Assembly: GCF_006717075.1 (NCBI RefSeq)
Contig: NZ_VFQC01000001.1
Span: 2,403,501 to 2,467,500 of the forward strand
DNA: 64,000 nucleotides
Direction of reading: 5' to 3'
Source: Haloactinospora alba
GTDB lineage: Bacteria > Actinomycetota > Actinomycetes > Streptosporangiales > Streptosporangiaceae
Shown: piece after piece, positions 7,756 to 23,816 of the stretch
Numbering within the stretch: position 1 is the first letter of the stretch
Layout: every line of letters begins with the position of its first letter
The notes under the pieces: model-generated
Seen by the model: the letters and a program-made list of their open reading frames with translations, nothing else
Told to the model about the DNA's origin: nothing
Database searches by the model: none
Position numbers and translations under genes: made by a program

Positions 7756-8292
7756 GTGACCCAACCGCCCTCTCCGTACAACTTCCTTCCCGAGGTTCCG
7801 TCGTTCACTGTAACCAGCAGCGACGTCACCCACGGCCAGACTCTTCCGAACTCCCAGGTCAGCGGCATCATGGGAGCGGGTGGGGAGGACGTGTCCCCGC
7901 AACTGTCGTGGAGTGGTTTCCCCGAGGGCACCAGGAGTTTCGCCGTCACCTGCCTCGACCCGGACGCCCCCACCGCGAGCGGTTTCTGGCACTGGGCCGT
8001 GTGCGACATTCCCGCGACGACCACCGAGCTCGTCCGCGGCGCCGGGGACGAGAACGGCACGGGGCTTCCGGCCGGGGCGGTCACGCTGCGCAACGACGCC
8101 GGGAGCAAGCGCTACATCGGTGCCGCCCCGCCGCCCGGGCACGGGCCGCACCGTTACATGTTCGTGGTCCACGCGGTGGACGTGGAGTCGTTGGGAATCG
8201 ACGACTCCGCGAGCCCGGCGTTCCTCGGATTCAACCTGTTCTTCCACACTCTGGGCCGCGGGGAGATCACCCCGGTCTTCGAACTGGCCTGA
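7756..8292 (+). CDS. PEBP family protein (YbhB/YbcL, Raf kinase inhibitor-like)
   Basis: 178 residues of the phosphatidylethanolamine-binding protein fold. It shows the bacterial hallmarks: [15 protein letters not shown], the ligand-pocket [19 protein letters not shown] segment, and [18 protein letters not shown]. The GTG start at 7756 sits 5 bases after a perfect AGGAGG, ruling out the longer upstream frame. Bacterial members are small cytoplasmic or periplasmic proteins whose ligand is unknown; some inhibit proteases or bind phosphorylated ligands. No signal peptide is seen. The transcript ends in a strong hairpin. Confidence 0.92.
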
Positions 8293-8302
8293 GCGCACAC
8301 GT

Positions 8303-8336
8303 GTCCGGGGCCGTCCCCGTGGCGACGGCCCCGGAC
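8303..8336 (+). terminator. Strong hairpin after the PEBP gene
   Basis: A perfect 13-bp stem (8303-8315 and 8324-8336) with an 8-base loop starts 11 bases after the stop codon. It is GC-rich and has no T-tract. Confidence 0.65.
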
Positions 8337-8450
8337 CGCCCCCCGCCCGGAGACCGCTGGCGTTCGGAACACGGACCGGCCTGCTTGCCCGCGCGGGAGG
8401 GAACGGTTCTCCACCCCCTGAGACCCCACCGAAAGGCCACGTGAACAGCC

Positions 8451-9083
8451 ATGGACACAACCCTTCCCGCGGCGCCCGCCGACACGACGGTCATCTTCGA
8501 CTACGGAGGCGTGCTCTCCCAGCCACAGCCGCCGGAAGCAGTGGCCGAGCTGGAACGGCTCGCGGGCGTACCGGCCCCGGACTTCTGGGCAGCCTACTGG
8601 GACCAGCGGCGCAGCTACGACGGTGGGCTCACGGCTGTGGAGTACTGGGACCGCGTCGCCCACCAGGCCGGCGCCGAATGGGACACGTCCCGGACGAACG
8701 AGCTGTGGGCGGCCGACGTGAGCTCGTGGCTGCACGTCGCCCCCGAGAGTGTCGACCTTCTCCACCGGGCCGCCGCCACCGGCGCCAACGTGGCGCTGCT
8801 CTCCAACGCCCCCGCGGGGATCGCGAACGCGTTGCGGAGTTCGCCCGCCCTGTCCGTCCTGCGTGCGCAGTTCTTCAGCTGCGACCTTCGGATCTGCAAA
8901 CCCGATCCGGCGATCTACACCCGGGTACTCGACGCGTTGGACCTCCCTCCCGAGCGCAGTGTCTTCGTCGACGACCGCGAGGAGAACGTACAGGCCGCTC
9001 TGCGGTTGGGGATCGACGCGCACCGTTTCACCGGGAGCGGCGAGCTGGAGTCGTTCCTCACCCAGCGTCTGGGCCCCGTGTGA
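8451..9083 (+). CDS. HAD superfamily hydrolase (subfamily IA-like)
   Basis: 210 residues with all four haloacid-dehalogenase motifs in order: I, VIFDYGGVLS (residues 14-23) with the nucleophile Asp; II, LLSNA; III, the Lys of ICKPDP; IV, VFVDDREEN with the acidic pair. Motif I reads D-Y-G-G rather than D-x-D-G, so the acid/base Asp typical of phosphatases is missing, as in epoxide-hydrolase N-terminal-like and some dehalogenase-type HADs. The helical cap lies between motifs I and II. The substrate cannot be predicted. It stands alone between the PEBP gene and an ATP-grasp gene. Confidence 0.88.
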   Translation: MDTTLPAAPADTTVIFDYGGVLSQPQPPEAVAELERLAGVPAPDFWAAYWDQRRSYDGGLTAVEYWDRVAHQAGAEWDTSRTNELWAADVSSWLHVAPESVDLLHRAAATGANVALLSNAPAGIANALRSSPALSVLRAQFFSCDLRICKPDPAIYTRVLDALDLPPERSVFVDDREENVQAALRLGIDAHRFTGSGELESFLTQRLGPV

Positions 9084-9274
9084 GCGGTGTCCTCCCCACC
9101 GCCTCCCGGCTCGGGTAGTTCCCGGGCGGCGGGGAGCCGGTCACTCGCTCCGACACTCGGAGGCCGCTGTCCCACACGATGTGCGGATCGCGGGTTTACG
9201 CTCGGTACATGCGCGTTGACCGTATTCACTCTGAGAACAGCGCATTCCTCACCCCGAGCGGAGGAGCCCATACC

Positions 9275-10318
9275 GTGTCCGCCGCACATTTCCCCGACCG
9301 GTCCACCGTCATCGTCACCGCGGCCGGGTCGGCCGCGACGCCGTCCACGGTCCTGCACCTGCGCCGGCACGGGTTCCGCGTCGTCGCCACCGACACCGAT
9401 CCCGAAGCACCGGGACTCTACCTGGCGGACCGCAGCTACCTGGTCCCGTCGGGGGACAGCGGTGTTTTCCTGCCCGAGCTCCGTGCCATCTGCCGACGGG
9501 AGCAGGCCAGCGCGCTCGTCCCGTTGGTCGACGAGGAGCTGGTTCCGGCCGGGGAACTGGAGGACAAGGGGATGGCCGTGCTCCTCCCCCGTGCCGAGTT
9601 CGTCGCGACATGCCTGGACAAGTACGTGCTGATGCGACGGTTGGCGGCGGCCGGGCTCCCCGTCCCGGCCACCCGCCTGTTCGGGGAACGGTTCGGTTCT
9701 CCGGCGCCGCCGCTCGTGGTGAAGCCCCGCTCCGGACGTGGCAGCCGCGGGGTCCGGACGTGCGCCACGGCGGAGGAGTACGAGCGGTTGTCGGCCAGTG
9801 GCGAGCATGCCCCGGAGAACACCGTCGTCCAGGAGTGGATCGGCGGGACCGAGTTCACCGTGTCCGTGGTCTGCTGGCGGGACGGGACCGTGCAGGCGGT
9901 GGTTCCGAAGGAGGTGGTCCTGAAACGTGGGGTCACCACGTTCGCGGTGTCCCGCGAGCACCCGCGGGTGTCCGAGGTGTGCCGTGCTGTCCAGCACGAG
10001 CTGCGGGCCGACGGGCCGTTCAACGTTCAGCTCGCGCTGGACGGTTCCGGTGAGCCCCGCATCTTCGAGATCAACCCGCGGTTCTCCTCCACGGCCCCTC
10101 TAACCGCGGCCGCCGGGGTGGACGAGATCGCGGGGCTGATTCTGCAGGCGAGGCACCACGGACCGCGGTTGCGCGACACGTGGCGCTCGGGTGTGGTGAT
10201 GGTGCGGCGCTGCACCGAGGAGTTCCTCACCGAGGAGGAGTTCTCCGCCTGTGGCATCGTCCCGGGAGCGGAAACGCCGCGGACCGCGCGTCCGGCGGAC
10301 GTGGGAAGCCTGACGTAA
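9275..10318 (+). CDS. ATP-grasp enzyme, carbamoyl-phosphate-synthase-like
   Basis: 347 residues. An N-terminal pre-ATP-grasp Rossmann-like domain (VIVTAAGSAATPSTVLHLRRHG; VVATDTDPEAPGL) is followed by an ATP-grasp domain with LVVKPRSGRGSRGV, VQEWIGGTEFTV and the metal-binding IFEINPRFSS. Such proteins join a carboxylate to an amine or thiol using ATP, and this type often acts on peptidoglycan precursors, amino acids or natural products. The GTG at 9275 is chosen because GGAGGAG lies 8 bases upstream and homology begins just after it; the frame could be opened further upstream at 9179. No biosynthetic partners surround it, so the substrate is open. Confidence 0.85.
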   Translation: MSAAHFPDRSTVIVTAAGSAATPSTVLHLRRHGFRVVATDTDPEAPGLYLADRSYLVPSGDSGVFLPELRAICRREQASALVPLVDEELVPAGELEDKGMAVLLPRAEFVATCLDKYVLMRRLAAAGLPVPATRLFGERFGSPAPPLVVKPRSGRGSRGVRTCATAEEYERLSASGEHAPENTVVQEWIGGTEFTVSVVCWRDGTVQAVVPKEVVLKRGVTTFAVSREHPRVSEVCRAVQHELRADGPFNVQLALDGSGEPRIFEINPRFSSTAPLTAAAGVDEIAGLILQARHHGPRLRDTWRSGVVMVRRCTEEFLTEEEFSACGIVPGAETPRTARPADVGSLT

Positions 10319-10378
10319 CCGGCACCGCCCCGGGCGGTTGTCGGGATCGCGGACCCGTCCGCCAGAGATCCGGAAATT

Positions 10379-10399
10379 TATCCAGACATTTCCTGGATA
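10379..10399. promoter_or_regulatory. Inverted repeat upstream of the DUF1707 pair
   Basis: Perfect 7-bp arms TATCCAG and CTGGATA flank a 7-base spacer. A second repeat (GGAAAT/ATTTCC) is interleaved just upstream. The local AT content is unusually high. It is a candidate operator for the downstream genes. Confidence 0.35.
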
Positions 10400-10578
10400 G
10401 TGGTCATGGATAGGCAGCGTCGCTAGCGGAAAGAACCCTGTCGAGAAGAGGACGTAACGGTGCGCCCTGCTGCGTGGCGGACTCGTCACGACGGCGCGGT
10501 TCTGACGCGGCGCTTTTCTCGTACGAAGGCGGGACGTATCGTGAAATTCCCCAGCATCGTGCGGTAGGGGGTGGGACG

Positions 10579-11028
10579 TTGAGCGAGGAACAGGTCCCGG
10601 AAAACCGCATGCGCGCCTCGGACGCTGACCGGGACGCCACAGCCGAACGTCTCGCGATCGCCCTTCAGGAAGGCCGGCTCGGCGTGACGGAGTACGAGCA
10701 GCGCCTGGACGCGGCGATGAACGCAACCGTTCTGGGCCAGCTATGGAAACTATCGGCTGACCTTCCCGAGCCTCCGGAACCCGAGGAGTCCGACAGGGAA
10801 CTGGCCACCGCGGACCAGTCCGGTTTCGTCTCACCGTGGAAGGACTGGATCGACGAGTGGCGGTGGTGGCTCGGTGGAGCGGTCATCATGACGGGAATAT
10901 GGGGGGTAACCAGCATCATGGGCGGAGCACTGCTGCCGTTCTGGCCGCTGGTTCCGCTCGGAATCTGGGCAGCGATCCTGGTGGCGGCTGCCATCTGGCC
11001 GGACGAGAGTTCCGGCAGTCGGAGATAA
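10579..11028 (+). CDS. DUF1707 and 2-transmembrane domain protein (copy 1)
   Basis: 149 residues. A DUF1707 domain (MRASDADRDATAERLAIALQEGRLGVTEYEQRLDAA, residues 11-50) is followed by two membrane helices with IWGVTSIMGGALLPFWPLVPLGIW between and within them. DUF1707 is an actinobacterial helical domain found at the N-terminus of small membrane proteins, with no fixed function. The TTG start at 10579 is favoured because the neighbouring paralogue begins with the same E-E-Q-V-P segment and third-position GC drops sharply upstream. A GGGGGTGGG stretch precedes it. It is followed after 32 bases by its paralogue. Confidence 0.85.
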   Translation: MSEEQVPENRMRASDADRDATAERLAIALQEGRLGVTEYEQRLDAAMNATVLGQLWKLSADLPEPPEPEESDRELATADQSGFVSPWKDWIDEWRWWLGGAVIMTGIWGVTSIMGGALLPFWPLVPLGIWAAILVAAAIWPDESSGSRR

Positions 11029-11060
11029 ACGCCGTCCGGTTCGGGGGACGGAAGGCGAGT

Positions 11061-11549
11061 ATGGACGAGGAACAAGTACCGCCCGACCTCATGCGCGCCG
11101 GCGACATCGACCGCGATGCCGTCACCGAACGCCTGACGTACGCCTTCCAGGAAGGGCGGCTGACGCTGGACGAGTACCACGAGCGTCTGGACCGCGCCAT
11201 GCGTGCCGTTGTCATGCGCGACCTCGCTCCGCTCACCAGCGACCTTCCCGCTCCACCGCCGCCAGCCCCGAGAACCGAGTCGGAGGCGGGGCAGGAGGTT
11301 TCCGACGAACGCCAGGAACGGTGGCGGCAGCGGCTGGAACCGTGGCGCGGTCTCGCGGCGATCTCCGTCATCCTGGTGGGGATCTGGGGTGTAACGAGCG
11401 TGATCTCCGGTGAGCTGCTGCCGTTCTGGCCGCTGATCCCCATCGGTTTCATGTTCATGTTCACGCTGGCGGGAGCGGTCGGCGGAACGTACCTCGACGG
11501 GAGCGAGCAGCGTTCCCCGTTGGAGCGTCCGGACAGCGACGACCCGTGA
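11061..11549 (+). CDS. DUF1707 and 2-transmembrane domain protein (copy 2)
   Basis: 162 residues with the same layout as the preceding gene: EEQVPPDLMRAGDIDRDAVTERL opens the DUF1707 domain, a proline-rich linker follows, and two helices flank the shared motif IWGVTSVISGELLPFWPLIPIG. The two proteins are clear tandem duplicates and may form a membrane complex together. The ATG at 11061 follows GGAAGGCGAG. The membrane-domain repeat WGVTS..G.LLPFWPL is the best conserved part, more than the DUF1707 part. Function is unknown. Confidence 0.87.
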   Translation: MDEEQVPPDLMRAGDIDRDAVTERLTYAFQEGRLTLDEYHERLDRAMRAVVMRDLAPLTSDLPAPPPPAPRTESEAGQEVSDERQERWRQRLEPWRGLAAISVILVGIWGVTSVISGELLPFWPLIPIGFMFMFTLAGAVGGTYLDGSEQRSPLERPDSDDP

Positions 11550-11565
11550 CGGACGTGTCCCCTCC

Positions 11566-11592
11566 CGCCGCCGGAGGAGTCAGCCGGCGGCG
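11566..11592. terminator. Hairpin between convergent DUF1707 and DUF3145 genes
   Basis: Perfect 9-bp arms CGCCGCCGG and CCGGCGGCG flank a 9-base loop. The right arm lies in the last codons of the convergent DUF3145 gene. Probable bidirectional terminator. Confidence 0.5.
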
Positions 11593-12074
11593 TGCAACCA
11601 ACGCACCGGGGCGCCCTCCCCGGCGTGGCGGAACGGTTCGAGTTCCTCGTCCCACACACGGCCGGTGAGCCGGTCGAGTTCCTCGGCGAGGTCGGTCCCG
11701 TGCGCCGCCGCGCTCTCCATCGCCGCACGCAGCCGGGACTCGGAGACCATGACCTCCCCCGCCGCGCTCGTGACGGCGGTGAAGATGCCCAGTGCGGGGG
11801 TGTAGCTGTAACGCACCCCGTCGCATCCGGGCGTCGCCTCCTCGGTCACCTCGAAGCGAAGCTTCTGCCAACCGTTCAGCGCGGAGGCGATGGCGCCGGA
11901 CACACCCGGCGTGCCCTGCCAGTTCAGCTCGGAACGTTGCACTCCCGGGGCGGCCGGCTGGGCTGTCCACTCGAGTCGCACGGGTACACCCATCACCCCG
12001 GCGACCGCCCATTCGACATGCGGGCACAGCGCCGCAGGAGCGGAGTGTACGTACAAGACGCCGCGTGCGGACAC
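11580..12074 (-). CDS. DUF3145 family protein
   Basis: 164 residues matching the actinobacterial DUF3145 family, recognised from RGVLYVHSAPAALCPHVEWAVAGVMG at the start and the late RLTGRVWDEELEPFRHAGEGAPVRWLHAAG. The family is nearly universal in actinomycetes, often near fatty-acid synthesis genes, but has no assigned function; no such neighbours are visible here. The start is GTG with AGGAGG just upstream. No membrane segment or signal is present, so it should be cytosolic. It is divergent from the sigma factor gene. Confidence 0.88.
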   Translation of the reverse strand: MSARGVLYVHSAPAALCPHVEWAVAGVMGVPVRLEWTAQPAAPGVQRSELNWQGTPGVSGAIASALNGWQKLRFEVTEEATPGCDGVRYSYTPALGIFTAVTSAAGEVMVSESRLRAAMESAAAHGTDLAEELDRLTGRVWDEELEPFRHAGEGAPVRWLHAAG

Positions 12075-12241
12075 TGAACCTCCTGATACGAACGAGTGCG
12101 CTTCCCCGACGCCCTCGTACCGGCAGAGGAGCTGTCCGTATTGGGTACTCTTCGCACCCCATTGTGCCCCATGCCCCCCACGGGCACCAGAGGCACCGAC
12201 CGAATCCGGCGTTTCCCCGGCGTAGGGCGATGAAAAAGGCT

Positions 12242-12264
12242 AACGTGCTCCTGCATATAGACGT
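12242..12264 (+). promoter_or_regulatory. Candidate ECF-type promoter of the sigma-CHAT operon
   Basis: AAC (12242-12244) and CGT (12262-12264) are separated by 17 bases, matching the AAC...CGT pattern of many ECF sigma promoters, which often drive their own sigma gene. It lies 20 bases before the sigma start. A TATAGA sequence also falls within it. Confidence 0.3.
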
Positions 12265-12284
12265 GAACCGAGATCCTACTGGGG

Positions 12285-12878
12285 GTGCGGGTGCGAGACC
12301 AGCCCGACGGAGACGTCCCAACCGGCGAACTGGTCAAACGTGCCCTGGAGGGAGGGGATCCCGCAGCGTGGGAGTCCCTCATCGGCCGCTACGTCCGCAG
12401 GGTCCGTGCGGTGGTGCGTTCCTACGGCCTCTCCACCCACGACGCCCAGGACGCGGAGCAGACGGTGTGGTTCCGCCTCTCCGACCATCTCGCCCGCATA
12501 CGTTCCCCCGACCGGATCGGCGCCTGGCTCGCTTCCACGGCACACGACGAGTGCCGCAAACAGCTGCGTCTGAGCCGCCGCGTCACTCCCGCCGACCCCG
12601 CCCAGCTCGACGCCGTCGACCATCACAGCCCCGAAACGTTGCATCTGGACGCTGAGACGGCCCGCCGGGTACACGGGGCCATAACCCAGCTGGGCGAGCC
12701 GGACCGGACCGTGGCCGCCCTGGACCTGCACGCTCCCCGCTCTCCCGCGAGTGACGTGGCGGAGTTCACCGGATTGCCGCAGCGGGAGGTTCCCACTGTG
12801 CGCCGCCGCGCGCGGCGGCGGCTACGCCGGATCCTCACGTCGAACGACCAGCGGAAAGGGTCAGGATATGTCCGATGA
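12285..12878 (+). CDS. ECF-like RNA polymerase sigma factor
   Basis: 197 residues with a sigma-70 region 2 (ESLIGRYVRRVRAVVRSYGL, DAQDAEQTVWFRLSDHLARI, then the -10-binding RIGAWLASTAHDECRK) and a degenerate region 4 helix-turn-helix ([28 protein letters not shown]). Length and domain order fit an extracytoplasmic-function sigma factor. It probably directs RNA polymerase to a small regulon. Its stop overlaps the next gene by 11 bases. There is no membrane anti-sigma factor, so activity is presumably set by the neighbouring beta-domain protein or CHAT protease. The GTG start lacks a strong ribosome site; 12291 is an alternative GTG. Confidence 0.85.
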   Translation: MRVRDQPDGDVPTGELVKRALEGGDPAAWESLIGRYVRRVRAVVRSYGLSTHDAQDAEQTVWFRLSDHLARIRSPDRIGAWLASTAHDECRKQLRLSRRVTPADPAQLDAVDHHSPETLHLDAETARRVHGAITQLGEPDRTVAALDLHAPRSPASDVAEFTGLPQREVPTVRRRARRRLRRILTSNDQRKGSGYVR

Positions 12879-13338
12879 GGACGCAGTCGAGGACGCGCTG
12901 TTCATGGAGGAGCTCCGGCGCGCCCACGCCGCGCCGGAACCCACGACCGACGAGATCCGCGCCACCGCCCGGGCGCTGAGCTCGAACCGCCGGCACGGTG
13001 CGCTCCTCGCCGAGTTGGAGGAGGACTCGGCGGACTGCCCCGCAGGCGGGTTGCGGGAGACGTCCGCCCTCACGGACACGCGCTACGCGTGGTTCCACGA
13101 CTCCACTGTCACGGTCCGGTTGGAGATCGTCGCGTTCGACGGGCAGCGGGATGTCGTCGGACGCGTCACGCCCGCCCCGGACTCCCCCGTCCTACTGCAG
13201 CGCGCGGACAGCACGAGCAGCCATCCCGTGGACCCCGACGGTGCTTTCACGGCACGGGGCCTCGCGCGGGGGCCGCTCAGCCTGCTGGTGCTGCCACCGG
13301 GCGGCCCTATGGTCGCGACCCGGTGGATCACCGTGTAA
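12868..13338 (+). CDS. Small acidic protein with C-terminal beta (CarboxypepD_reg-like) domain
   Basis: 156 residues. The first 65 residues are acidic and helical. The C-terminal half (VTVRLEIVAFDGQRDVVGRV, then DPDGAFTARGLARGPLSLLVL and a final TRWITV) looks like a transthyretin-like beta sandwich of the carboxypeptidase-regulatory type. It overlaps the sigma gene by 11 bases and has AGGGTCAGG before its ATG, so it is translationally coupled to it. I recall similar proteins between sigma factors and CHAT-protease genes in other actinomycetes, without known function. It could be an anti-sigma or adaptor, or a substrate of the protease; nothing in the sequence decides. Confidence 0.8.
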   Translation: MSDEDAVEDALFMEELRRAHAAPEPTTDEIRATARALSSNRRHGALLAELEEDSADCPAGGLRETSALTDTRYAWFHDSTVTVRLEIVAFDGQRDVVGRVTPAPDSPVLLQRADSTSSHPVDPDGAFTARGLARGPLSLLVLPPGGPMVATRWITV

Positions 13339-13339
13339 C

Positions 13340-13389
13340 CGCGCCGGTGGCACTGTCGGGGTCGCCATACCCCCGGCGCGACGTTGACA
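13340..13389 (+). promoter_or_regulatory. Stem-loop followed by TTGACA box before the CHAT gene
   Basis: Arms CGCGCCGG (13340-13347) and CCGGCGCG (13373-13380) start right after the stop codon of the beta-domain gene, with a further TGGC/GCCA pairing inside. TTGACA follows at 13384-13389, with a weak -10 (GTGTAG or TGTAGA) 17-18 bases on. This suggests attenuation plus a separate promoter for the protease gene. Confidence 0.4.
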
Positions 13390-13497
13390 CGTCGCGGAAA
13401 CGCTTCGTGTAGAAGGAATTCCGGAGTGTTATCACTGCTGTGGGCCGGACCTCCTCTCCGCCCCGCAGTTCCGGTAGCTCTCGAAAGGCGCTGTCTC

Positions 13498-16041
13498 GTG
13501 ACGGTTTCCCGTGCCGACGGAATCTCCCTCTCCCGCACCCTCATCGCGCAAAGCCCGGACGTCGCCCGCCGGCGGGCGGAACAGACACTCGCGGAGGACC
13601 CCTCCCCCCGCCCACGAGCCACAGCGTTGTGGCTGCTGGGAATGGCGCGGCGGGAGCTCGGGGAGTCCGACACCGCCCACCGCCTGCTGTACCAGGCGGC
13701 CGCTGTCGCCTCCCGGGCCGGCGTACCCGACACAGCAGCCCACGCGCGGGCCTCCCGGTTGGGTTCCATGGCCATGCGGCACGGCACGAGCGGTATGGCG
13801 GGAACCTCCCTGGGACGTATGAGTACCGCCGTTTCCTCGGCACGCGCCCTCGTTCCGCTGCACCTCGGGGTCGCCGCCGCCCAGCGCGGACGGTTCGGTT
13901 CCGCGTTGGCCGGTTTCGACACCGCCCTGGGCGAGATGGCCGGTGCGGACGAACAGCTGCTGTGCGGGCTCCTCAGCAACCGCGGCCTCGCCCTGATGTA
14001 CTCGGAGCGTTTCGGGGAAGCCCGCCACGACCTGGAACGGGCCCGCTCCATAGCGGAGGAGCGCACGCTGACCTACCTGCACGGCGTCACCGTGCAGAAC
14101 CTGGGGTGCCTCGCGGTCCGGAACGGCGACGTTCCCGGCGCCCTCTCCCTCTTCGCCGAGGCCGCTCCTCTGGTTCCCGCAGCGAGGCAGGCCGCGTTGT
14201 GGCTGGACCGCACGGACGCGCTCCTCACCGCCGGCATGACGGGCCAGGCCGAACACGCCCTCACCGAGGTGCAGCGCCTCCTCCCACCGCGGGGAGCCTC
14301 CACCTCCGACCTCACCGCCTTCTCCCTGCTGCGCGCCAAGATCCACCTCGCTCGGGGCGCCTCTGAGGAGGCGGGCCGCCACGCGCAGCGTGTGCGCCGC
14401 TGGTTCCCCTCCGACTCCATGTGGGCACGGCTCGGCGCTCTCCTGGAATGGGCGGCCCGCAACGGGACCAGTCACAGCCACGCTCTCGGGCCGGTCGCGG
14501 AGGAGGCAGCGCGCGGCACCGGAATACGCAACAACCGTAAGGCTCCACGGCCGCGTTCCCGTGCCCGGCCGCACTCCTCGGTTCCGGACGTCCGCACGGG
14601 GGCGGCGTCGGCCGCGCTCGCCCGTTGCGTGCCGACTACCCCGTTGGGTCCGCTCTCCGTGGCTGTCCCCAACCAGCGGCACACCGACGCGCTCGGTGCT
14701 CTCGCCCTCGGCGAGCACGAACGGGCCCGAAGCGAGCTCCTGCGGCGGCCGGCGGACGGGCAGCCGGCCGTCGCCGTCCACCACGTGGAAGCGATCGCCC
14801 AGACCCGCACGCACAGCCAGGAGATCGCCAGCGCCGGCGCGGAGATAGCGATGGCCGACGGGGACGCTGCCGCCGCACTGGAATGGGTCGAGCACAGCCG
14901 CACGCCCGGGATCCGCCCGTCCCCGTGCCGGGACCGGGAATGGGGCGGGCTGCTGGAGCGGTGCCGTTCCGAGTACACCAGGGCCGACGACGGGGAAGGC
15001 ACAGCCCCGGAACAGTTGCGCAGCACGACCGCCCGGCTGGGGATCGCGCAGTGGCACAGCGGATGCGCACGACCCTCCGCTCCTCCGCGAACGGTGGCAC
15101 CCCTGCCGCAGGAGTTCCGCCGCCACCTACGGGACCGGGTGTTCCTGTGTTACGCCCATGTCGGCGGCGCACCCGTGGCGTTCACGTTCTCCAACGGCCG
15201 GAGCGGCATCCACGAACTCGCGCCCCGGGGAGAGATCGAGGACGCGGTGGCGAAGCTGGTGAGCGCCGCGCGGTTCAACGCCGTCTTCCCTGGCGGAGCT
15301 GCCCAGCGGGACCTCACCCGCGCGGCGCAACGGGTGGAACACGCCCTTCTCCGTCCCGTCGCCGCAGCCGTCGGCGACCGTCCGCTGGTCATCGCCCCGG
15401 CAGCGTACGCGCAGTCGCTTCCGTGGGGACTCCTCCCGTCGCTGCGCGGCCGCGACATCACCGTCGTACCGTCCGGACGGTCCTGGCTGGAGAGCCTCGA
15501 CCACTGCCGAGGCGCACGCGGCACGGCGCTGCTCGCCGCCGGGGCGGGGATCGGCGGCGGCGAGACGGAGGTCCGGAGTCTGCGTCGGCTCTACCCCGGC
15601 GCACGCGTCCTTACCGGGAAGGACGCCACGGTGAGGACACTGCTGGAAGAGCTCGGCGGCGCCGACGTGGCGCACGTGGCGGCGCACGGCTGGACCCCCG
15701 CGTCCGCTCCCATGCTGTCCGGGCTGTCCATGGCGGACGGGCCCGTCTTCGCCTACGACCTGGAACGGCTCCCCCGCGTTCCCAATCTGTGCGTGCTGTC
15801 GTCCTGCTGGCTCGGACGGTCGGTCCCCTCCGACACCGGGAGCCCACTCGGATTGAGTTCGGCCCTCCTGGCGCTGGGCTCGGCGACCGTCGTCGCCGGG
15901 GTCCTTCCGGTGCGCGACCACGACATCACCCCCGCGATGACCCGCATGCACGGTGCCATCCACGCGGGGGCGACACCGAGCCGCGCGGTCGCCGACCATC
16001 TGGCGGACGCCGGGTTCGTCTGCTTCGGCGCCGGAGCGTAG
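13498..16041 (+). CDS. TPR-CHAT domain protein (caspase-like protease)
   Basis: 847 residues. Roughly 1-330 is a run of at least five TPR-like helical repeats (such as LLSNRGLALMYSERFGEAR), followed by a basic proline-rich hinge and further helices. The C-terminal 250 residues are a CHAT peptidase domain of the caspase/separase clan with both catalytic residues: His730 in HVAAHGW and Cys770 in CVLSSCWLG. It should be a cytosolic cysteine protease gated by the repeat region. The GTG at 13498 is chosen over a GTG at 13426, which has a better ribosome site, because third-position GC is only about half in the stretch between. It is third in a sigma-factor operon. Confidence 0.86.
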   Translation: MTVSRADGISLSRTLIAQSPDVARRRAEQTLAEDPSPRPRATALWLLGMARRELGESDTAHRLLYQAAAVASRAGVPDTAAHARASRLGSMAMRHGTSGMAGTSLGRMSTAVSSARALVPLHLGVAAAQRGRFGSALAGFDTALGEMAGADEQLLCGLLSNRGLALMYSERFGEARHDLERARSIAEERTLTYLHGVTVQNLGCLAVRNGDVPGALSLFAEAAPLVPAARQAALWLDRTDALLTAGMTGQAEHALTEVQRLLPPRGASTSDLTAFSLLRAKIHLARGASEEAGRHAQRVRRWFPSDSMWARLGALLEWAARNGTSHSHALGPVAEEAARGTGIRNNRKAPRPRSRARPHSSVPDVRTGAASAALARCVPTTPLGPLSVAVPNQRHTDALGALALGEHERARSELLRRPADGQPAVAVHHVEAIAQTRTHSQEIASAGAEIAMADGDAAAALEWVEHSRTPGIRPSPCRDREWGGLLERCRSEYTRADDGEGTAPEQLRSTTARLGIAQWHSGCARPSAPPRTVAPLPQEFRRHLRDRVFLCYAHVGGAPVAFTFSNGRSGIHELAPRGEIEDAVAKLVSAARFNAVFPGGAAQRDLTRAAQRVEHALLRPVAAAVGDRPLVIAPAAYAQSLPWGLLPSLRGRDITVVPSGRSWLESLDHCRGARGTALLAAGAGIGGGETEVRSLRRLYPGARVLTGKDATVRTLLEELGGADVAHVAAHGWTPASAPMLSGLSMADGPVFAYDLERLPRVPNLCVLSSCWLGRSVPSDTGSPLGLSSALLALGSATVVAGVLPVRDHDITPAMTRMHGAIHAGATPSRAVADHLADAGFVCFGAGA

Positions 16042-16187
16042 AGCGCCACCGCGGCGAACGCGTGACAGCGCGCTCCCCGCCGCCGTAGGGCGTTGCCCCG
16101 GCACGGAGCGGTCCGGGCGCCGCGGGGTGCGTCACCTCCCCGGGGCGAGGCACAGCAGCCTCGGCGCGGGCGCGATAGCGTACACAC

Positions 16188-16598
16188 ATGGAGGATGACA
16201 CAACCCGTTCGCACGAGGCGGGCGAGGCACACGTTTTCACGGTGGCGGAGGCGCGTGCGCTCATGCCCGAGGTACGCAGCAACGCGGCGGACCTCGTCTC
16301 CCTGCGGGCGGACATGGCCGAACTCGCCGCCGAGGTCCGCGGGGTCGGCGGTTCCGCGCTGGGCGGGGTCGCCGAGCTCAAGGCCATGGAAGCGCGGTTC
16401 AGCGAACTGCAGACCTGGTTCACGGACAAGGGGATCGAGGTGAAGGGGATAGCACCGCTTCTCATCGATTTCCCGGCGTCACTGGACGGTGTGTCGGTGC
16501 GGTTGTGCTGGTTGGAGGACGAGACCGAGCTGGGCTGGTACCACCGGAGCGACCTCGGTTTCCTCGGCCGCCGCCCTCTCCCACCCGAGGCTTCCTGA
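16188..16598 (+). CDS. DUF2203 family protein
   Basis: 136 residues. The N-terminus HVFTVAEARALMPEVRSNAADLVSLRADMAEL is a long helix typical of DUF2203; the C-terminus carries the signature LLIDFPASLDGVSVRLCWLEDETELGWYH and a closing GFLGRRPL. DUF2203 is a small widespread soluble family of unknown function. No membrane segment or signal is visible. The gene stands alone and is followed by two hairpins. Confidence 0.87.
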   Translation: MEDDTTRSHEAGEAHVFTVAEARALMPEVRSNAADLVSLRADMAELAAEVRGVGGSALGGVAELKAMEARFSELQTWFTDKGIEVKGIAPLLIDFPASLDGVSVRLCWLEDETELGWYHRSDLGFLGRRPLPPEAS

Positions 16599-16931
16599 CC
16601 CGACGCGACCGCGGAGGTTCCGCCTCCGCACCCCATCCAGCGAACGCGCCCCCGGCACCCGGACCCGCGTCACACGGCGGGACCGGGCCCCGGGGGCGGG
16701 ATCCGGTTCCGCCCCCGGGCGCGTTCCGGTCGTACGAGGCGCCACTCCGCGAACGGCAACAGCGCAGCACGAGTACGTATCTCTCCGGGAAACAGGGGTG
16801 TGCCCGCATCAGGTCGGTTTGCTAACGGTGAGCCGAGTGCACCCGCGGACCCGAGCGGTGCAGCATTGGAGGGGCACCTCCCGCCGCGGGTCCGGTGCGG
16901 GACACGAGCGCCCGACTGAGGGGAGAAACGC
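16599..16931. other. Non-coding gap with two hairpins
   Basis: The stretch between DUF2203 and anmK has no credible gene. It holds a perfect 7-bp hairpin (16611-16629) just after the DUF2203 stop and a stronger 11-bp hairpin (16689-16699 with 16709-16719, 9-base loop). Both are terminator-like. The remainder is presumably the anmK promoter and leader, with GAGGGGAGAA before its GTG. Confidence 0.55.
16689..16719 (+). terminator. 11-bp GC hairpin
   Basis: Perfect arms CCCGGGGGCGG and CCGCCCCCGGG flank a 9-base loop. It is the second of two hairpins after DUF2203 and separates it from anmK. Confidence 0.5.
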
Positions 16932-18107
16932 GTGCGCGTCATCGGCCTTTCCTCGGGAACGTCGATCGACGGTATCGATGTCGCGGCCGCCGACCTGGAG
17001 CTCACCGGCGATCTGCTGCGTATGACCCCGCTCGGCCACCGCACCGTGCCGTACTCCCCCCACCTCCGCCGGACCATCGGGGAGGCGCTGCCGCCGGCCC
17101 CCACGACGATGGAGACCGTGTGCCGCATCGACACCCTGGCCGGACAGGAGTTCGCTGCCGCAGCGGCGCGCGGAGCAGCGGAGCTCACCGGCGACACGGC
17201 CGAACTCGTCGCCTCCCACGGCCAGACCCTCTTCCACTGGGTGGAGGAGGGGCGCACCGCGGGTTCCCTGCAACTCGGACAGCCCGCCTGGATCTCCGAA
17301 CGGACCGGACTACCCGTTGTGGCGGACCTCCGCGCCGCCGACGTGGCCGCGGGAGGCCAGGGGGCGCCCCTGGCCTCCGTCCTCGACGTCCTCCTGCTCC
17401 ACGACCGCCCGGCGCCGGCGGCGGCGCTGAACCTCGGCGGTATCGCCAACGTGACCGTCGCACGCGGGGACGCGCCTGAGACCGCCTTCGACACCGGCCC
17501 CGGCAACGCGCTGTTGGACGCTGCCGCCAGCCGCGTGACCGACGGGCGGGAGCACGCCGACACCGGTGGGCGGTGGGCCGCCTCCGGAAACGTCGCCGAC
17601 CACGTGCTGCGCCACCTGCTGTCGGACCCGTACTACCAGCGCGCTCCCCCGAAGACCACCGGAAAGGAGCGTTTCCACGCGGGATACCTCGCGGACGCGA
17701 TCGGCGGAAGCGACATCACCGCCGCCGACCTCATGGCCACCCTCACCGAACTCACCGCGGTGACCGTGGCGGACGCGCTCCGTCCCCACGGGGTGGGTGA
17801 GGTACTCGCCTCCGGTGGGGGAACCCGCAACCCGGTTCTGATGCGCCGCCTCGCCGACAGGCTGCGCCCCGCCCGTCTCATCCCGACGGACGACATCGGT
17901 CTGGACAGCGACGCGAAAGAGGCGTACCTGTTCGCGCTTCTCGGGTTCCTCACCTGGAACGGCCTCAGCGGTTCCCTGCCCGGTTGCACCGGAGCCCGAC
18001 GAGCACCGGTAGCGGGAAGCATCACTCCCGGAACCGCACCACTGCGGCTTCCCGCTCCCCACCCCACGTTCCCGACACGGATGCGTATCGACGACGCCCG
18101 ACACTGA
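16932..18107 (+). CDS. anmK: Anhydro-N-acetylmuramic acid kinase
   Basis: 391 residues of the AnmK family, which phosphorylates 1,6-anhydro-N-acetylmuramic acid while opening its anhydro ring, giving MurNAc-6-phosphate in cell-wall recycling. The sequence opens with VIGLSSGTSIDGIDVAAADLE, the family ATP and sugar motif, continues with ASHGQTLFHWV, ALNLGGIANVTV and FDTGPGNALLDAA, and ends with LASGGGTRNPVLMRRL. The GTG at 16932 has GAGGGGAGAA upstream. The last 50 residues, rich in Pro and Arg, extend beyond the usual fold. A sodium/solute symporter gene follows after 29 bases, suggesting linked uptake and phosphorylation of a wall-derived sugar. Confidence 0.94.
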   Translation: MRVIGLSSGTSIDGIDVAAADLELTGDLLRMTPLGHRTVPYSPHLRRTIGEALPPAPTTMETVCRIDTLAGQEFAAAAARGAAELTGDTAELVASHGQTLFHWVEEGRTAGSLQLGQPAWISERTGLPVVADLRAADVAAGGQGAPLASVLDVLLLHDRPAPAAALNLGGIANVTVARGDAPETAFDTGPGNALLDAAASRVTDGREHADTGGRWAASGNVADHVLRHLLSDPYYQRAPPKTTGKERFHAGYLADAIGGSDITAADLMATLTELTAVTVADALRPHGVGEVLASGGGTRNPVLMRRLADRLRPARLIPTDDIGLDSDAKEAYLFALLGFLTWNGLSGSLPGCTGARRAPVAGSITPGTAPLRLPAPHPTFPTRMRIDDARH

Positions 18108-18136
18108 CCGCGTCCCGCGACCCCCTGGAGGCCCCA

Positions 18137-19651
18137 GTGCAACCACTCGATCTCGTCGTCATCGCCGCCTACCTGCTGTGTTCCGCGTGGGTGGGGCTGC
18201 GTCTCTCCGGCAAGCAGCACAACGTCAGGGACTACTTCCTCGGCAGCAGGCAGCTGCCGTGGTGGGCCGTGTGCCTCTCCGTCGTGGCGACGGAGACCAG
18301 CGCGCTGACCGTGATCAGTGTCCCCGCGGTCGCCTACATCGGCGACATCACCTTCCTCCAGTTAGCCATCGGCTACCTGATCGGACGGATCATCGTCGCG
18401 TTCGTCCTGCTACCCCGGTACTACAACGGCGAGATGGCGACCGCCTACGCGTACTTCGGCCTGCGTTTCGGCCGCGGCATGCAGAGCACGGCCTCGGTGG
18501 CGTTCCTGTTCACCCGGCTACTCGCCGACGGGGTGCGGCTCTTCGCCGCCGCCATCCCGATGAAGGTCATCCTGGACTCCTACGGCCTGGAGATGTCCTA
18601 CTTCACGATCATCGCCGGCCTCGGTGTCGTCACGATCCTCTACACCTTCATCGGCGGCATCAGGGCCGTCGTGTGGGTGGACGTGCTGCAGATGGCCCTG
18701 TACGCGGCCGGAGCCGTCATCGCGCTGGGGTTCATCACCAGCAGTCTCGACGTGAACTTCCTCAGCGTCGCGGCGGAGGAGGGCAAGACCCGGTTCCTGG
18801 ACCTCACCTCCAACCCGTTCGCGGCCCCCTACGCCACGGTCACCGCGCTGGTCGCGGGAGCACTGCTGTCGACCGCCTCGCACGGCGCGGACCAGATCGT
18901 CGTCCAGCGGCTGCTCGGCTGCCGGAGCCTGCGGGACGCGCAGAAAGCCGTCATCGGCAGCGCCGTCGTGGTGTTCTTCCAGTTCGCCCTGTTCCTCACC
19001 GTGGGACTGGCGCTGTTCAGCTACTACGAGGGCGCCTCGATCGAACAACTCGGTCTCGACCAGAACGACGAGATCTTCCCGACCTACATCATCGAGGGAC
19101 TGCCCGCCGGACTGTCCGGCCTGCTCCTCGCCGGGATGATGGCCTCGGCCATGAGCACGCTGTCCTCCTCCCTGTCCGCCCTGTCCTCCTCCACCATGGC
19201 CGACCTCTACCAGAAGTTCACCCGCCGGTCCCTCTCCGAGGCCCAGGGGCTCAGGCTCGGCAGGATCTTCACGCTCGGCTGGGGGCTCGTGTTCATCGGT
19301 GCCGGCGCCCTGTTCACCGGCACCGACAACCCCGTCATCGAGTTGGGGCTGTCCGTCGCGGGACTCACCTACGGCGGGCTGCTCGGGGCGTTCTTCCTCG
19401 GGCTGTGGGTCCGCAGGGCGCGCCAGCTCGACGCCGTCATCGCGTTCACCGCAGCCGTGGTCACGACGGTGTGGCTGTTCGTCTTCCAGCCCGAGGTGGT
19501 GGAGTTCACGTGGTACACGGGTATCGGTCTGGCCATCGTGCTCGTGGTCGGCTACCTCCTGTCCCGGCGGCACCGGGACGGCGCCCCGGGGGCCGACGCC
19601 GCCCGCGCTCCCGACCCCCACAGCACGGAGGAGGCACAGGACCACGCATAG
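18137..19651 (+). CDS. Sodium/solute symporter (SSS family)
   Basis: 504 residues with about 13 membrane helices. The family signature is clear: YFLGSRQLPWWAVCLSVVATETSALTVISVPA near the N-terminus, LLPRYYNGEMATAYAYF, and GLLLAGMMASAMSTLSSSLSALSS in the C-terminal half, the helix that usually contributes Na+-binding Ser residues. SSS transporters import sugars, amino acids, sialic acid or vitamins with Na+. The GTG start is preceded by GGAG at a normal distance; the upstream in-frame ATG would overlap anmK. Placement right after anmK suggests a muropeptide-derived sugar as solute, but this is inference only. Confidence 0.92.
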   Translation: MQPLDLVVIAAYLLCSAWVGLRLSGKQHNVRDYFLGSRQLPWWAVCLSVVATETSALTVISVPAVAYIGDITFLQLAIGYLIGRIIVAFVLLPRYYNGEMATAYAYFGLRFGRGMQSTASVAFLFTRLLADGVRLFAAAIPMKVILDSYGLEMSYFTIIAGLGVVTILYTFIGGIRAVVWVDVLQMALYAAGAVIALGFITSSLDVNFLSVAAEEGKTRFLDLTSNPFAAPYATVTALVAGALLSTASHGADQIVVQRLLGCRSLRDAQKAVIGSAVVVFFQFALFLTVGLALFSYYEGASIEQLGLDQNDEIFPTYIIEGLPAGLSGLLLAGMMASAMSTLSSSLSALSSSTMADLYQKFTRRSLSEAQGLRLGRIFTLGWGLVFIGAGALFTGTDNPVIELGLSVAGLTYGGLLGAFFLGLWVRRARQLDAVIAFTAAVVTTVWLFVFQPEVVEFTWYTGIGLAIVLVVGYLLSRRHRDGAPGADAARAPDPHSTEEAQDHA

Positions 19652-19680
19652 CCTCGCCGGCCGTGGTTAGCGGAACGGAC

Positions 19681-20112
19681 ATGACGGAGAGGAACCCGGA
19701 CGGACACGGCGACCCGGTCAACGAGGAAGCCGCGGACTGGGAGGAAGCCGGACTACCGGCCCAGGAGGACAGCACCGAGGACCAGACGCTCCCGGGCGAC
19801 CGGCCGAGTGCCATGTCGGAGTTCGGCTCCGCCGGCACGGAGCGGGAGGCCGGGGAGCCCCTGGACACCGCCCTCTCCCGGGACCAGCCGGACACCCGGG
19901 GAGCACGCGGCAGCGCGGCACGCGTGGAGGAGGAGCGGACACCGCAAAGCCCCGACGACCAGGAGGAGGGGATGCGCCTCGTCGCGGAGGACGAGGGAGT
20001 GCGCCGCGACGAGGAGGACACGCTCATCGCCGAGGACGCGGGAGAGGACCGCGGAGCTCACACTCCCGAGGAGCAGGCGGTCCACGAGCGCCACGAACGC
20101 GGGCGGCGGTGA
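19681..20112 (+). CDS. DUF5709-like acidic protein
   Basis: 143 residues, strongly acidic and low in hydrophobic residues, likely largely disordered. The pattern GEPLDTALSRDQPD, then RLVAEDEGVRRDEEDTLIAEDAGEDRGAHTPEEQAVH, matches what I know of the actinobacterial DUF5709 family. Function is unknown. The ATG at 19681 lies 29 bases after the symporter stop; the ribosome site is weak. A palindrome follows before the convergent MBL gene. Confidence 0.75.
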   Translation: MTERNPDGHGDPVNEEAADWEEAGLPAQEDSTEDQTLPGDRPSAMSEFGSAGTEREAGEPLDTALSRDQPDTRGARGSAARVEEERTPQSPDDQEEGMRLVAEDEGVRRDEEDTLIAEDAGEDRGAHTPEEQAVHERHERGRR

Positions 20113-20189
20113 GGACCCCTTCCACGGCCGCGGCCGGGGCGAGGGTGGTGGAGTCTGACGGCGCGGCCGCAGGCTCCACCAACGCGGTC

Positions 20190-20203
20190 ACCGTCCGGAC
20201 GGT
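20190..20203. terminator. Palindrome between convergent genes
   Basis: ACCGTCCGGACGGT is a perfect 14-bp palindrome lying 19 bases from the end of the MBL gene and about 80 bases after DUF5709. A looser GTGGAG/CTCCAC pair lies just before it. It is a possible bidirectional terminator. Confidence 0.4.
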
Positions 20204-20221
20204 TGGTTCGCTGTGGGGGGC

Positions 20222-20884
20222 TCACCAGCCGCGGGCACGCCACTCGGCCAGGTGCGGGCGCTCGGCGCCCAGCGTGGTGTCCTTCCCGTGGCCCGGGTAC
20301 ACCCAGGTGTCGTCGCCCAGCTCGGCGAAGACGCGCCCCTCCACGTCGTCGATCAGTGACGTGAACGCCTCCGTCGAGAAGGTTTTCCCGACACCTCCCG
20401 GGAACAGGCTGTCCCCGGTGAAGAGGTGCGTGCGCCCGTCCGGGCCGTCGTAGCGCAACGCGATCGACCCCGGGGTGTGGCCGCGCAGGTGGATCACCCC
20501 CAGCTCGCTCTCCCCGACCGGAACCCGCTCACCGTGCTCCACCGGATCGTCCACGGACACCGGAAGTTCGGAGCTGTCGTCGGGGTGGGCCACGGTCCGC
20601 GCCCCGGTCACTCCCACGACCTCGGCCAGGGCTTGCCAGTGGTCCTGGTGCCGGTGCGTGGTGATCGCCCTCGCCAGCCCCGTGCCGCCGATGAGTTCCA
20701 ACAGGCGGTCGGCCTCGTTCGCGGCGTCGATGAGGACCGCTTCCCCGCTGCGTTTGCAGCGCAGCAGGTAGGCGTTGTTGTCCATCGGCCCCACGGCGAG
20801 TTTGCTGATCGTCAACTCGGACAGGTCACGTGTGTCGGCGGGTCCACCGACCCGCGTATCTCCGGAGTAGGTCACATCTCCCAT
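20222..20884 (-). CDS. MBL-fold metallo-hydrolase (glyoxalase II-like)
   Basis: 220 residues of the metallo-beta-lactamase fold. The metal-binding THRHQDHW motif (HxHxDH type), RGHTPGSIAL, LFTGDSLFPGGVGKT and the final VYPGHGKDTT are the standard ligands for a dinuclear Zn/Fe site, and the overall pattern is that of glyoxalase-II-like thioesterases. It starts one base inside the stop of the upstream enoyl-CoA hydratase gene (TAATG overlap), so the two are coupled. It could hydrolyse a thioester made by or related to its partner, but the substrate is unknown. Confidence 0.9.
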   Translation of the reverse strand: MGDVTYSGDTRVGGPADTRDLSELTISKLAVGPMDNNAYLLRCKRSGEAVLIDAANEADRLLELIGGTGLARAITTHRHQDHWQALAEVVGVTGARTVAHPDDSSELPVSVDDPVEHGERVPVGESELGVIHLRGHTPGSIALRYDGPDGRTHLFTGDSLFPGGVGKTFSTEAFTSLIDDVEGRVFAELGDDTWVYPGHGKDTTLGAERPHLAEWRARGW

Positions 20885-21672
20885 TACAACACCCAGTTAG
20901 GCTGACGTTTCTCGCGGAACGCGGAACGCCCCTCGGCGGCATCCGCACTGTCGAAGAACTCCGCGGACAGCTCTCCCATCTCGGCGAACGCCGCCTCCCG
21001 TTCGGAGGCGTGGCCCGCCCCCAACAGCTCCTTCGTGCGCGCCAGTGCCCGGGGGGCACCCTGGCGCAGACCGTCCAGAACGCTCTCGGTGGCGGCGTCC
21101 AGCTCCTCCGGAGGTACGGCGCGGGTCAGCAACCCACTGTCCACAGCAGCGGCCGCGTCGAACGTCTCCCCCGTCAGGAAGTAGCGGCTCATCCAGCGGT
21201 GGTGCATCCGGGCCGCGACCGGAACCGAGATTATCGCGGGGACGACTCCGATCCGGACCTCGGTGAAGGCGAACGTGGCCTCCGTGGTGGCCACGGCGAT
21301 GTCGGCGGCCGCGACCAGGCCGATGCCGCCGGCGCGCGCCGGACCGTTCACCCTGGCGACCACCGGTTTGGGAGCGTCCATGACCGCGGAGAACAGTTCC
21401 GGCATCCCGGGGGCGTCGGCGGGAGCCGGTGGGTGCCCCGCGCGCTCGGCCGCGATCTCCTTCAGGTCGGCACCAGCGCAGAACACCGACCCGGACGCGG
21501 TCAGGACCACCCCGCGCACCCCGTCGTCGGCCATGGCCGCCGCCAGTCCCCGGGAAAGCTCGGCGCGCAACCGGGCCGACAACGCGTTGCGGTTGCCCGG
21601 CGAATCCAGGGTGAGAGTGGCTATTCCCCGGTCGACCTCCCATCGGACCAACTCGCCTGTCGTCTCCGCCAT
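20884..21672 (-). CDS. Enoyl-CoA hydratase/isomerase family protein
   Basis: 262 residues of the crotonase fold. TLTLDSPGNRNALSARLRAELSRGL, VVLTASGSVFCAGADLKEI (first oxyanion-hole segment) and NGPARAGGIGLVAAADIAVA (second) are present. The catalytic glutamate region reads FAFTEVRIGVVPAIIS, with Glu at the first of the two usual positions. Members add water to, or isomerise, enoyl-CoA in fatty-acid or branched amino-acid breakdown. The ATG at 21672 is chosen because the longer frame upstream has no homology. It is coupled to the MBL hydrolase downstream by a one-base overlap. Confidence 0.91.
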   Translation of the reverse strand: MAETTGELVRWEVDRGIATLTLDSPGNRNALSARLRAELSRGLAAAMADDGVRGVVLTASGSVFCAGADLKEIAAERAGHPPAPADAPGMPELFSAVMDAPKPVVARVNGPARAGGIGLVAAADIAVATTEATFAFTEVRIGVVPAIISVPVAARMHHRWMSRYFLTGETFDAAAAVDSGLLTRAVPPEELDAATESVLDGLRQGAPRALARTKELLGAGHASEREAAFAEMGELSAEFFDSADAAEGRSAFREKRQPNWVL

Positions 21673-21761
21673 GTCTCTGCTGCTCCCATCCGACCGTGTT
21701 CGTCTGCCACCGTACGCGGGTGGGGACGGAACCACCGGACCCGCTCCCCCCACCCCGCGTC

Positions 21762-22916: not shown

Positions 22917-22918
22917 GG

Positions 22919-23512
22919 TCAGGCCGTAGTGGCTTCGGCCAGCACGTTGGCGAAGTTCACCATGTTGGACACGGACTCCGAGCCGTCGGCGGTCTGACTC
23001 ACCCGCAGGGTCAGTGGTTCGGCGGTGATCGCTCCCGTGTAGCCGTGGTCGAGGTCGCACGACTCGTCGGCGCACGACGCGGGTTCGAGGTCGATGTGGG
23101 CCAGCGCTCCCCAACTGACGTTGAGACTGACGCTGAGGACGACCTCGTCCGGCAGTGTCCCGGGCACGTAGTTCGCCGGGTCGGATACCACTCGGGTCAG
23201 TGCGACGGACTGGATGTTGCCGGTCTGGATGGCGTCGGTCGTGGTCGACGCGTGTGGGCGCCCTCCGGCCTCGGCCGGGGGGTGTTCGTCCGTGTGGCAC
23301 ACGATGAGCCGCGTGGCGGTGAGCAGCATGACGGTGATGTGCCGCCGCATTTCCATCGCTGGGTCGAACGTGGCCTCGTGGTGGACGACGGACGCCTCGG
23401 CGGTCTCGCTTCCGAGGGCGGTTGCCACAGCGTCGATCACCAGCGCTGGGTAATACCCGCTGCGCTCGATTTCCAAGCGCCAATCAGTAGACACGGCGCG
23501 CGTTTTCCTCAT
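22919..23512 (-). CDS. DUF5998 family protein
   Basis: 197 residues. The N-terminal IERSGYYPALVIDAVATALG and later EVVLSVSLNVSWGALAHIDLEPASCADESCDLDHGYTG match the actinobacterial DUF5998 family, which has no known activity. The start at 23512 has GGATGGAG before it; an in-frame GTG 7 codons on (just before STDWRLEIE) is an alternative. The Cys pair in SCADESCDLDHG may bind metal, though this is speculative. It is first in a two-gene unit with the phosphodiesterase. Confidence 0.85.
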   Translation of the reverse strand: MRKTRAVSTDWRLEIERSGYYPALVIDAVATALGSETAEASVVHHEATFDPAMEMRRHITVMLLTATRLIVCHTDEHPPAEAGGRPHASTTTDAIQTGNIQSVALTRVVSDPANYVPGTLPDEVVLSVSLNVSWGALAHIDLEPASCADESCDLDHGYTGAITAEPLTLRVSQTADGSESVSNMVNFANVLAEATTA

Positions 23513-23815: not shown

Positions 23816-23816
23816 G

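Follow-up and report, generated by a model that had tools for sequence, protein, structure and literature searches.

A candidate protease-operated sigma switch in Haloactinospora alba: an ECF-type sigma factor, a small beta-domain protein and a TPR-CHAT protease

What is a caspase-like protease doing beside a sigma factor? The question is raised by three genes of Haloactinospora alba within a window of 64,000 nucleotides (the whole stretch of DNA analysed; contig NZ_VFQC01000001.1, positions 2,403,501 to 2,467,500), in whose coordinates all positions below are given. The gene of an extracytoplasmic function (ECF)-type sigma factor (12285..12878; 197 residues, GTG start) overlaps by 11 bases (12868..12878) the gene of a small protein (12868..13338; 156 residues, ATG start), which is followed by a gene for a tetratricopeptide repeat (TPR) protein carrying a CHAT (caspase-HetF/separase-like) domain (13498..16041; 847 residues from a GTG start). 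The three genes, and the features described within and between them, are on the + strand. The gene set, the overlap and the place of the CHAT domain were part of an original prediction drawn from the DNA letters, and are confirmed here by the coordinates of the open reading frames (ORFs) and by Pfam; the same prediction had suggested that the protease cleaves the small beta-domain protein, or another regulator, and so releases the sigma factor. We regard a cytoplasmic, protease-operated sigma switch as the best explanation of the locus, with a probability of roughly 60%. The 156-residue protein, a putative soluble anti-sigma factor, would keep the ECF sigma factor in check; an intracellular (cytoplasmic) signal received by the TPR part would activate the caspase/separase-like CHAT domain, which would cut the anti-sigma factor after Arg63, in an exposed loop between a helical, sigma-binding part and a beta-sandwich. 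The severed anti-sigma factor would then release the sigma factor, or be degraded, and the sigma factor would transcribe its regulon. In many relatives a subtilase would perhaps act as a second protease or as an output, whereas H. alba does without it.

The sigma factor, the small protein and Arg63

The sigma factor matches Sigma70_r2 (Pfam; residues 32-99, E 1.6e-9) and TIGR02937, sigma70-ECF (residues 28-183, E 6.3e-14), and no separate region-4 match is found in Pfam at E ≤ 1. Judged by these matches it is an ECF sigma factor, with sigma2 and sigma4 regions and nothing else. Its region 4 is divergent in the eight loci of the H. alba clade (L031-L038; L-numbers denote the loci compared), where an Arg-rich helix replaces the usual IGPTRxRCL helix. 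The original prediction had noted that no membrane anti-sigma factor is present. The best 19-residue Kyte-Doolittle means are 0.25 for the sigma factor, 1.05 for the small protein and 1.82 for the TPR-CHAT protein (the last within the CHAT fold), so that a membrane segment is unlikely in any of the three on hydropathy alone, no dedicated predictor having been run.

The AlphaFold model of the small protein (pLDDT, the predicted local confidence, 83.9; 40 alignment rows) places, in order, helices at residues 3-21 and 28-42, a strand at 46-53, a segment at 59-65 with pLDDT < 50 and a beta-sandwich at 70-156, in keeping with the beta-domain that had been predicted and adding two helices before it. 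The N-terminal helices (residues 3-42; 12874..12993), which also take part in the profile match to the longer homologues described below, are the proposed sigma-binding part; the loop (residues 59-65; 13042..13062) is the only segment with pLDDT below 50; and the C-terminal sandwich (residues 70-156; 13075..13335) is modelled with confidence as an immunoglobulin/fibronectin type III (Ig/FnIII)-like fold. Foldseek returned no match to the sandwich at E ≤ 0.001, and the best VIA-align match was CBM56 (Z 8.6), with many Ig/FnIII-like folds tied below. The modelled fold thus appears generic, and we draw no function from its structural relatives; nor does any anti-sigma chain occur among the VIA-align matches listed, which we count as no evidence against an anti-sigma role.

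The case for that role comes from longer homologues. In another family of the phylum these have reading frames of 215-262 codons (counted stop to stop, their true starts not being fixed) and an extra N-terminal part, and eight of nine match the NCBIfam family 'anti-sigma factor' at E ≤ 1 (best E 8.7e-5); a search of the PDB with the long forms also gave a weak match to RskA (E 0.57). Short and long forms align as profiles over columns 13-138 (probability 96.4, E 1.1e-9), Arg on Arg. Because the long-form relatives match an anti-sigma family, the small protein is probably a soluble anti-sigma factor, of which the H. alba form would be a shortened version. Published class I anti-sigma factors contact the sigma factor through four helices, of which three bind sigma4 and one sigma2 (PMC7406223). 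No match to the class I N-terminal domain was found in the H. alba protein; it is the homologous long forms that match the NCBIfam family.

No residue of the small protein is better conserved than Arg63 (codon 13054..13056), for which the 242 sequences show 238 Arg, one His and three gaps (entropy 0.04). These sequences were left from 287 matches after duplicates and those covering <60% of the profile had been dropped; small-protein and CHAT matches above E 1e-5 were excluded from the counts. The linker that holds Arg63 varies in length and sequence on either side, and the confidence of the model is lowest at that spot. The residue is most commonly preceded by Val and followed by Gly, Ser or Ala, and it is present in 9/9 long forms, as G/A-V/I/L-R. 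Mean-field direct coupling analysis (DCA) also yields a strong pair inside the small protein, D53-R72, that flanks the Arg63 loop on both sides. Related proteases such as separase and the metacaspases cleave behind Arg or Arg/Lys, and we propose that Arg63 occupies P1 when CHAT cuts. The suggestion that the beta-domain protein is cleaved is strengthened because a nearly invariant Arg lies in a low-confidence loop and because the long forms match an anti-sigma family. In an earlier alignment of 134 rows, seven lacked Arg, two of them from genomes with CHAT (L067 and L102); in the later alignment of 242 rows, four lack it (L130, L136, L162 and L220), all from genomes without detected CHAT, and the placement of Arg in L067 is uncertain. 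Arg63 is lacking in 0/139 CHAT-bearing but in 4/11 CHAT-less cases (Fisher 1.6e-5, kinship ignored).

The TPR-CHAT protease and its association with the small protein

Pfam recognises both parts of the large protein (CHAT, PF12770, E 2.5e-21; TPR_2, E 6e-7). A mostly helical TPR part spans residues 7-523 (13516..15066; Pfam and AlphaFold model) and the CHAT domain residues 548-844 (15139..16029; Pfam, model and fold comparison), in a model with pLDDT 79. The catalytic His730 (15685..15687) and Cys770 (15805..15807) are each invariant in 152/152 distinct CHAT domains (from 174 matches, after duplicates and those <90% had been dropped) and in 32/32 sequences of another alignment, so that the catalytic pair, whose conservation had been set as a check on the original prediction, is never lost. 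By its sequence, with PF12770 and the catalytic His and Cys behind TPRs, the protein is a predicted CHAT protease. At E ≤ 1, Pfam returned TPR models, CHAT and a weak Peptidase_C50 only, and no SAVED domain fused to CHAT was found. The residue after the catalytic Cys is Trp in 5/7 members of the H. alba clade (Arg and Ala in the others) and mostly Asp or Glu in other clades.

Orthologous gene sets recur across many genera, and the idea that the set is not a real feature was rejected, the conservation being too strong. A single-sequence search with the H. alba small protein matched 40 of 60 relatives, its own genome counted. Profile searches place the small protein in 320/341 genomes of H. alba's family (64/68 genera) and in 45/396 genomes sampled across the phylum (E ≤ 0.001). 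In the H. alba genome itself the small protein has a single match, and the only CHAT protein is that of the locus. A sample seeded with the sigma factor (the best 80 of 290 relatives in named genomes) had the small protein in 74/80 loci and, as far as the fetched stretches reach, CHAT in 46/80; some of the 34 loci without CHAT in the stretch break off at a contig end. Conservation of the three-gene order, which the original prediction had put forward as a check, is borne out in part: the set extends far beyond close relatives, and a sigma gene lies upstream, on the same strand and within 900 bases, of 231 of the 242 distinct small proteins, but CHAT is not always downstream. Among the 123 small proteins with CHAT in the stretch (many stretches being too short to reveal it), it lies downstream on the same strand in 85, upstream on the same strand in 14, downstream on the opposite strand in 13 and upstream on the opposite strand in 11. 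CHAT being linked in every orientation, the tie would appear to be one of function rather than of operon structure.

The two proteins also occur together at the level of whole genomes. Triad-type CHAT was found in 52/396 genomes of the phylum sample (E ≤ 1e-20), 40 of them with both proteins (Fisher P 1.7e-38). On closer look, a weak small protein was recovered in 7/12 CHAT-only genomes, and no CHAT in the five genomes with the small protein only, one of which (G066) gave just a weak partial match; the counts then stand at 47 with both, 5 with the small protein only, 5 with CHAT only and 339 with neither, these last counted from the first search only. As to the sigma-seeded loci without CHAT, 28 of the 34 (27 genomes) were examined genome-wide, the remaining six being at contig ends. 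Where the adjacent protein has Arg63 in a clear motif, 16/16 genomes have a triad-type CHAT elsewhere (E ≤ 1.9e-64). No CHAT was found in seven Frankiales/Acidimicrobiia genomes with divergent small proteins, and among four genomes whose locus lacks the small protein, one had a strong CHAT (2.7e-101), one a weak CHAT (1.3e-15) and two had none. A replacement protease beside the CHAT-less loci was also considered: 18 neighbours were scanned, 16 of which belong to unrelated families and one to no family, while the remaining one (L164) is a TPR protein ending at a contig end, perhaps a truncated TPR-CHAT. A CHAT gene elsewhere in the genome is thus the better explanation of these loci. In a single genus, the clusters of two genomes (L230 and L231) contain the small protein in two and three copies, each cluster having two CHAT genes.

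Weighing the proposal, its alternatives and the layout of the locus

Several observations weigh against a sigma switch operated by a cut after Arg63. Some concern the anti-sigma role: searches of Pfam, NCBIfam and PADLOC at E ≤ 1 assign the H. alba small protein to no family, one long form of the nine is likewise without a match, and the strongest inter-protein couplings that DCA gives for 231 pairs of sigma factor and small protein (effective number 171) are scattered over both domains with no clustered contacts. When upstream regions were footprinted for a promoter through which the sigma factor would regulate itself, conserved blocks appeared within clades, in which no motif common to the clades was seen by eye; a hand-set AAC-N15-18-CGT pattern fits H. 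alba's own locus only (1/8 clade loci). Others concern the tie between Arg63 and CHAT. The co-occurrence Fisher values ignore kinship. Arg still aligns at site 63 in 7/11 CHAT-less cases, and stands in a clear motif despite the absence of CHAT in L087, L097 and L237 (draft assemblies, 82-97% complete); the loop alignment is uncertain in L131, L134, L150, L171 and the CHAT-bearing L067. In a tree built without the linker, the absence of CHAT needs 4 changes, of which at least 3 are forced, and the losses of Arg63 are fewer; the Arg-less rows lie within the Frankiales group, except for L220, which stands apart, and the tree does not include L162 and L097. Lastly, Craspase orthologues cut at non-conserved sites (A|S, L|D and M|K; PMC11106740), so that Arg specificity is no general rule for CHAT proteases.

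The alternative that survives best, unlikely in our view, is that an anti-sigma small protein is bound and not cut by CHAT, with Arg63 docking in the cleft to serve for recognition or as a pseudosubstrate; the TPR protein would then release the sigma factor by competition, or would itself be held inactive by the small protein. The near-invariance of one loop residue fits docking as well as cutting, and DdvA, titled a transmembrane anti-sigma factor, suggests that a single polypeptide with TPR-CHAT parts can take part in sigma control. A pure scaffold, however, would not need H730 and C770, which are invariant in 152/152 domains, and securin-type inhibitors carry a residue other than Arg at P1, where Arg would be cut.

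A second alternative turns on a fourth gene. The original prediction was right about the gene set and the catalytic pair but missed both the variable position of CHAT and a subtilase (Peptidase_S8) that clustering of neighbours finds beside the set (E 2.6e-19 in L046, 5293-6912). It is of about 370-480 codons in many loci of L039-L348 and lies within 4.5 kb in 26/42 relatives' loci, 43/80 sigma-seeded loci and 72/80 family loci; in 33/69 loci of the first two samples that have both genes, it is found ≤500 bases upstream of the sigma gene on the same strand. Alignment of 57 distinct rows shows conserved Asp and His motifs (the Ser motif, having served as the selection criterion, is conserved by construction). 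Possibly, most lineages rely chiefly on the subtilase, with CHAT activating its zymogen or the subtilase trimming the anti-sigma factor, and the H. alba form is a reduced relic. Its frequency in the three samples and its conserved motifs speak for such a role, to which we nevertheless assign only a small chance. No Peptidase_S8 match was obtained in the H. alba genome, by a search that was positive in 7/14 control genomes, and no subtilase is found at the clade loci L031-L038; yet Arg63 is kept in 8/8 of these loci, and the catalytic His and Cys in 7/7 of those with CHAT in the stretch. Nor did inspection of the subtilase alignment by eye reveal a counterpart of the small protein's Arg motif. 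Since the subtilase is missing from the H. alba genome and from the loci of its clade, the gene set can exist without it, and alongside a CHAT-operated switch the subtilase is perhaps a second protease, a zymogen or an output.

The weakest alternative, a most improbable anti-phage or cell-death module in which CHAT would cleave other cell proteins and the sigma factor would only report, has in its favour that TPR-CHAT proteases act in CRISPR-linked systems elsewhere (PMC10028731), that the H. alba genome has three RAMP-domain matches on another contig and that the TPR-CHAT protein weakly matches BovA in PADLOC (E 0.0011), but the set is near-core in the family (320/341), its neighbours are ordinary, no direct repeats of at least 22 bases occur in 8000-24000, and the small protein had no match in viral-contig (a search that reaches close relatives only), plasmid or phage sequences, so that there is little to connect the set with defence or cell death, in which the original prediction had noted that CHAT proteases act elsewhere, and a defence-island reading, with no mobile-element matches, was rejected.

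The ordinary neighbours are a DUF3145 gene upstream, on the opposite strand, and DUF2203 and AnmK genes downstream. By eye, the divergent DUF3145 gene has a strikingly conserved leader and 5' end (12020-12140; relatives L032-L038), which across the eight clade loci surpass the sigma leader in conservation. Further upstream is a tandem pair of DUF1707 (SHOCT-like) genes (10474-11549).

The three genes had originally been taken for one unit. A point for caution is the gap of 159 bases, with an inverted repeat, that separates the small gene from the likely CHAT start. This repeat, CGCGACGT-TGAC-ACGTCGCG (13377..13396), is perfect, with 8-base arms, and as it takes in TTGACA it may serve the CHAT gene as an operator or as a promoter of its own. 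A scan for consensus promoters and terminators found neither, this gap included. An alternative upstream TTG at 13384 would give a protein of 885 residues with the catalytic pair at H768/C808. The GTG at 13498 is the likelier start, the model from there being helical from residue 7; the original numbering, H730/C770, is right for this start.

Comparison with known systems

By sequence, the nearest solved structure to the CHAT domain is DdvA (E 3.8e-11), followed by Csx29. By fold, the model is nearest to Csx29 (Z 32.0; root-mean-square deviation, rmsd, 8.2 over 511 aligned residues), then comes yeast separase, the highest among the separases (Z 30.2, rmsd 12.3, 639 aligned), and DdvA stands lower in the list (Z 22.9, rmsd 6.4, 559 aligned). 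Such large deviations over long alignments suggest a shared architecture, not close kinship.

The resemblance to separase lies in the helical repeats and the caspase-like domain. Separase is, however, eukaryotic and acts on cohesin, and whereas it takes Arg at P1 under an ExxR rule, the residues round Arg63 are not ExxR. DdvA, titled 'transmembrane anti-sigma factor' in PDB entries 8rot/8rw5, shares the TPR-CHAT fold, and its His and Cys columns are kept in the sequence alignment; its title would make it a natural case of TPR-CHAT and sigma control joined in a single polypeptide. DdvA is, however, a single chain, a membrane protein by its title, whereas the H. alba set consists of separate genes with no likely membrane segment. 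No paper naming DdvA occurs among the literature matches listed. Likewise, the open-licence matches listed contain no description of the gene set, which may already stand in the main ECF classification.

The proposed mechanism has its precedents in Csx29, which cleaves Csx30, an inhibitor of CASP-sigma, in a flexible loop (PMC10028731), and in CalpL, a SAVED-Lon protease that cuts the anti-sigma factor CalpT, CalpS being the ECF sigma factor (PMC11417357). With the CalpL/CalpT/CalpS system the H. alba set would share the logic of protease, anti-sigma factor and sigma factor (PMC11417357); it differs from it in that CalpL is a Lon protease with cyclic oligoadenylate sensing and no CHAT. With Craspase it shares a TPR-CHAT protease, an ECF-type sigma factor and, as we propose, a sigma inhibitor as substrate; the cut sites there are non-conserved (PMC11106740), in contrast to the single nearly invariant Arg of the H. 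alba set. No Csx30 chain appears among the PDB matches of the small-protein profile up to E 10, the folds not having been directly compared. Nor is the locus of type III-E, the class whose genes accompany a CRISPR array and the effector Cas7-11: no Cas genes are present among the five neighbours scanned, and no direct repeats of at least 22 bases in the window from 8000 to 24000, the span searched for arrays. The three separate RAMP-domain ORFs of the genome (377-598 codons; contig C2, 398017-403564) are probably a type III CRISPR-Cas locus, on a contig other than that of the set.

Proteolytic release of a sigma factor is classically a membrane event, as with DegS/RseA and the like, or else a CRISPR event (CalpL, Craspase); here it would apparently take place in the cytoplasm, from ordinary chromosomal surroundings, with a single sharp candidate cleavage site, Arg63. 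It is tempting to go further, and to see in the set an old, CRISPR-independent sigma switch of the caspase/separase type, near-universal in the family and operated by an Arg-specific TPR-CHAT protease, of which Craspase would be a specialised offshoot and to which many lineages would have added a subtilase as second step; we hold this wider view tentatively, at slightly less than even odds. In any event, the set offers a candidate natural use for actinobacterial TPR-CHAT proteins and a candidate non-CRISPR relative of the output arm of Craspase.

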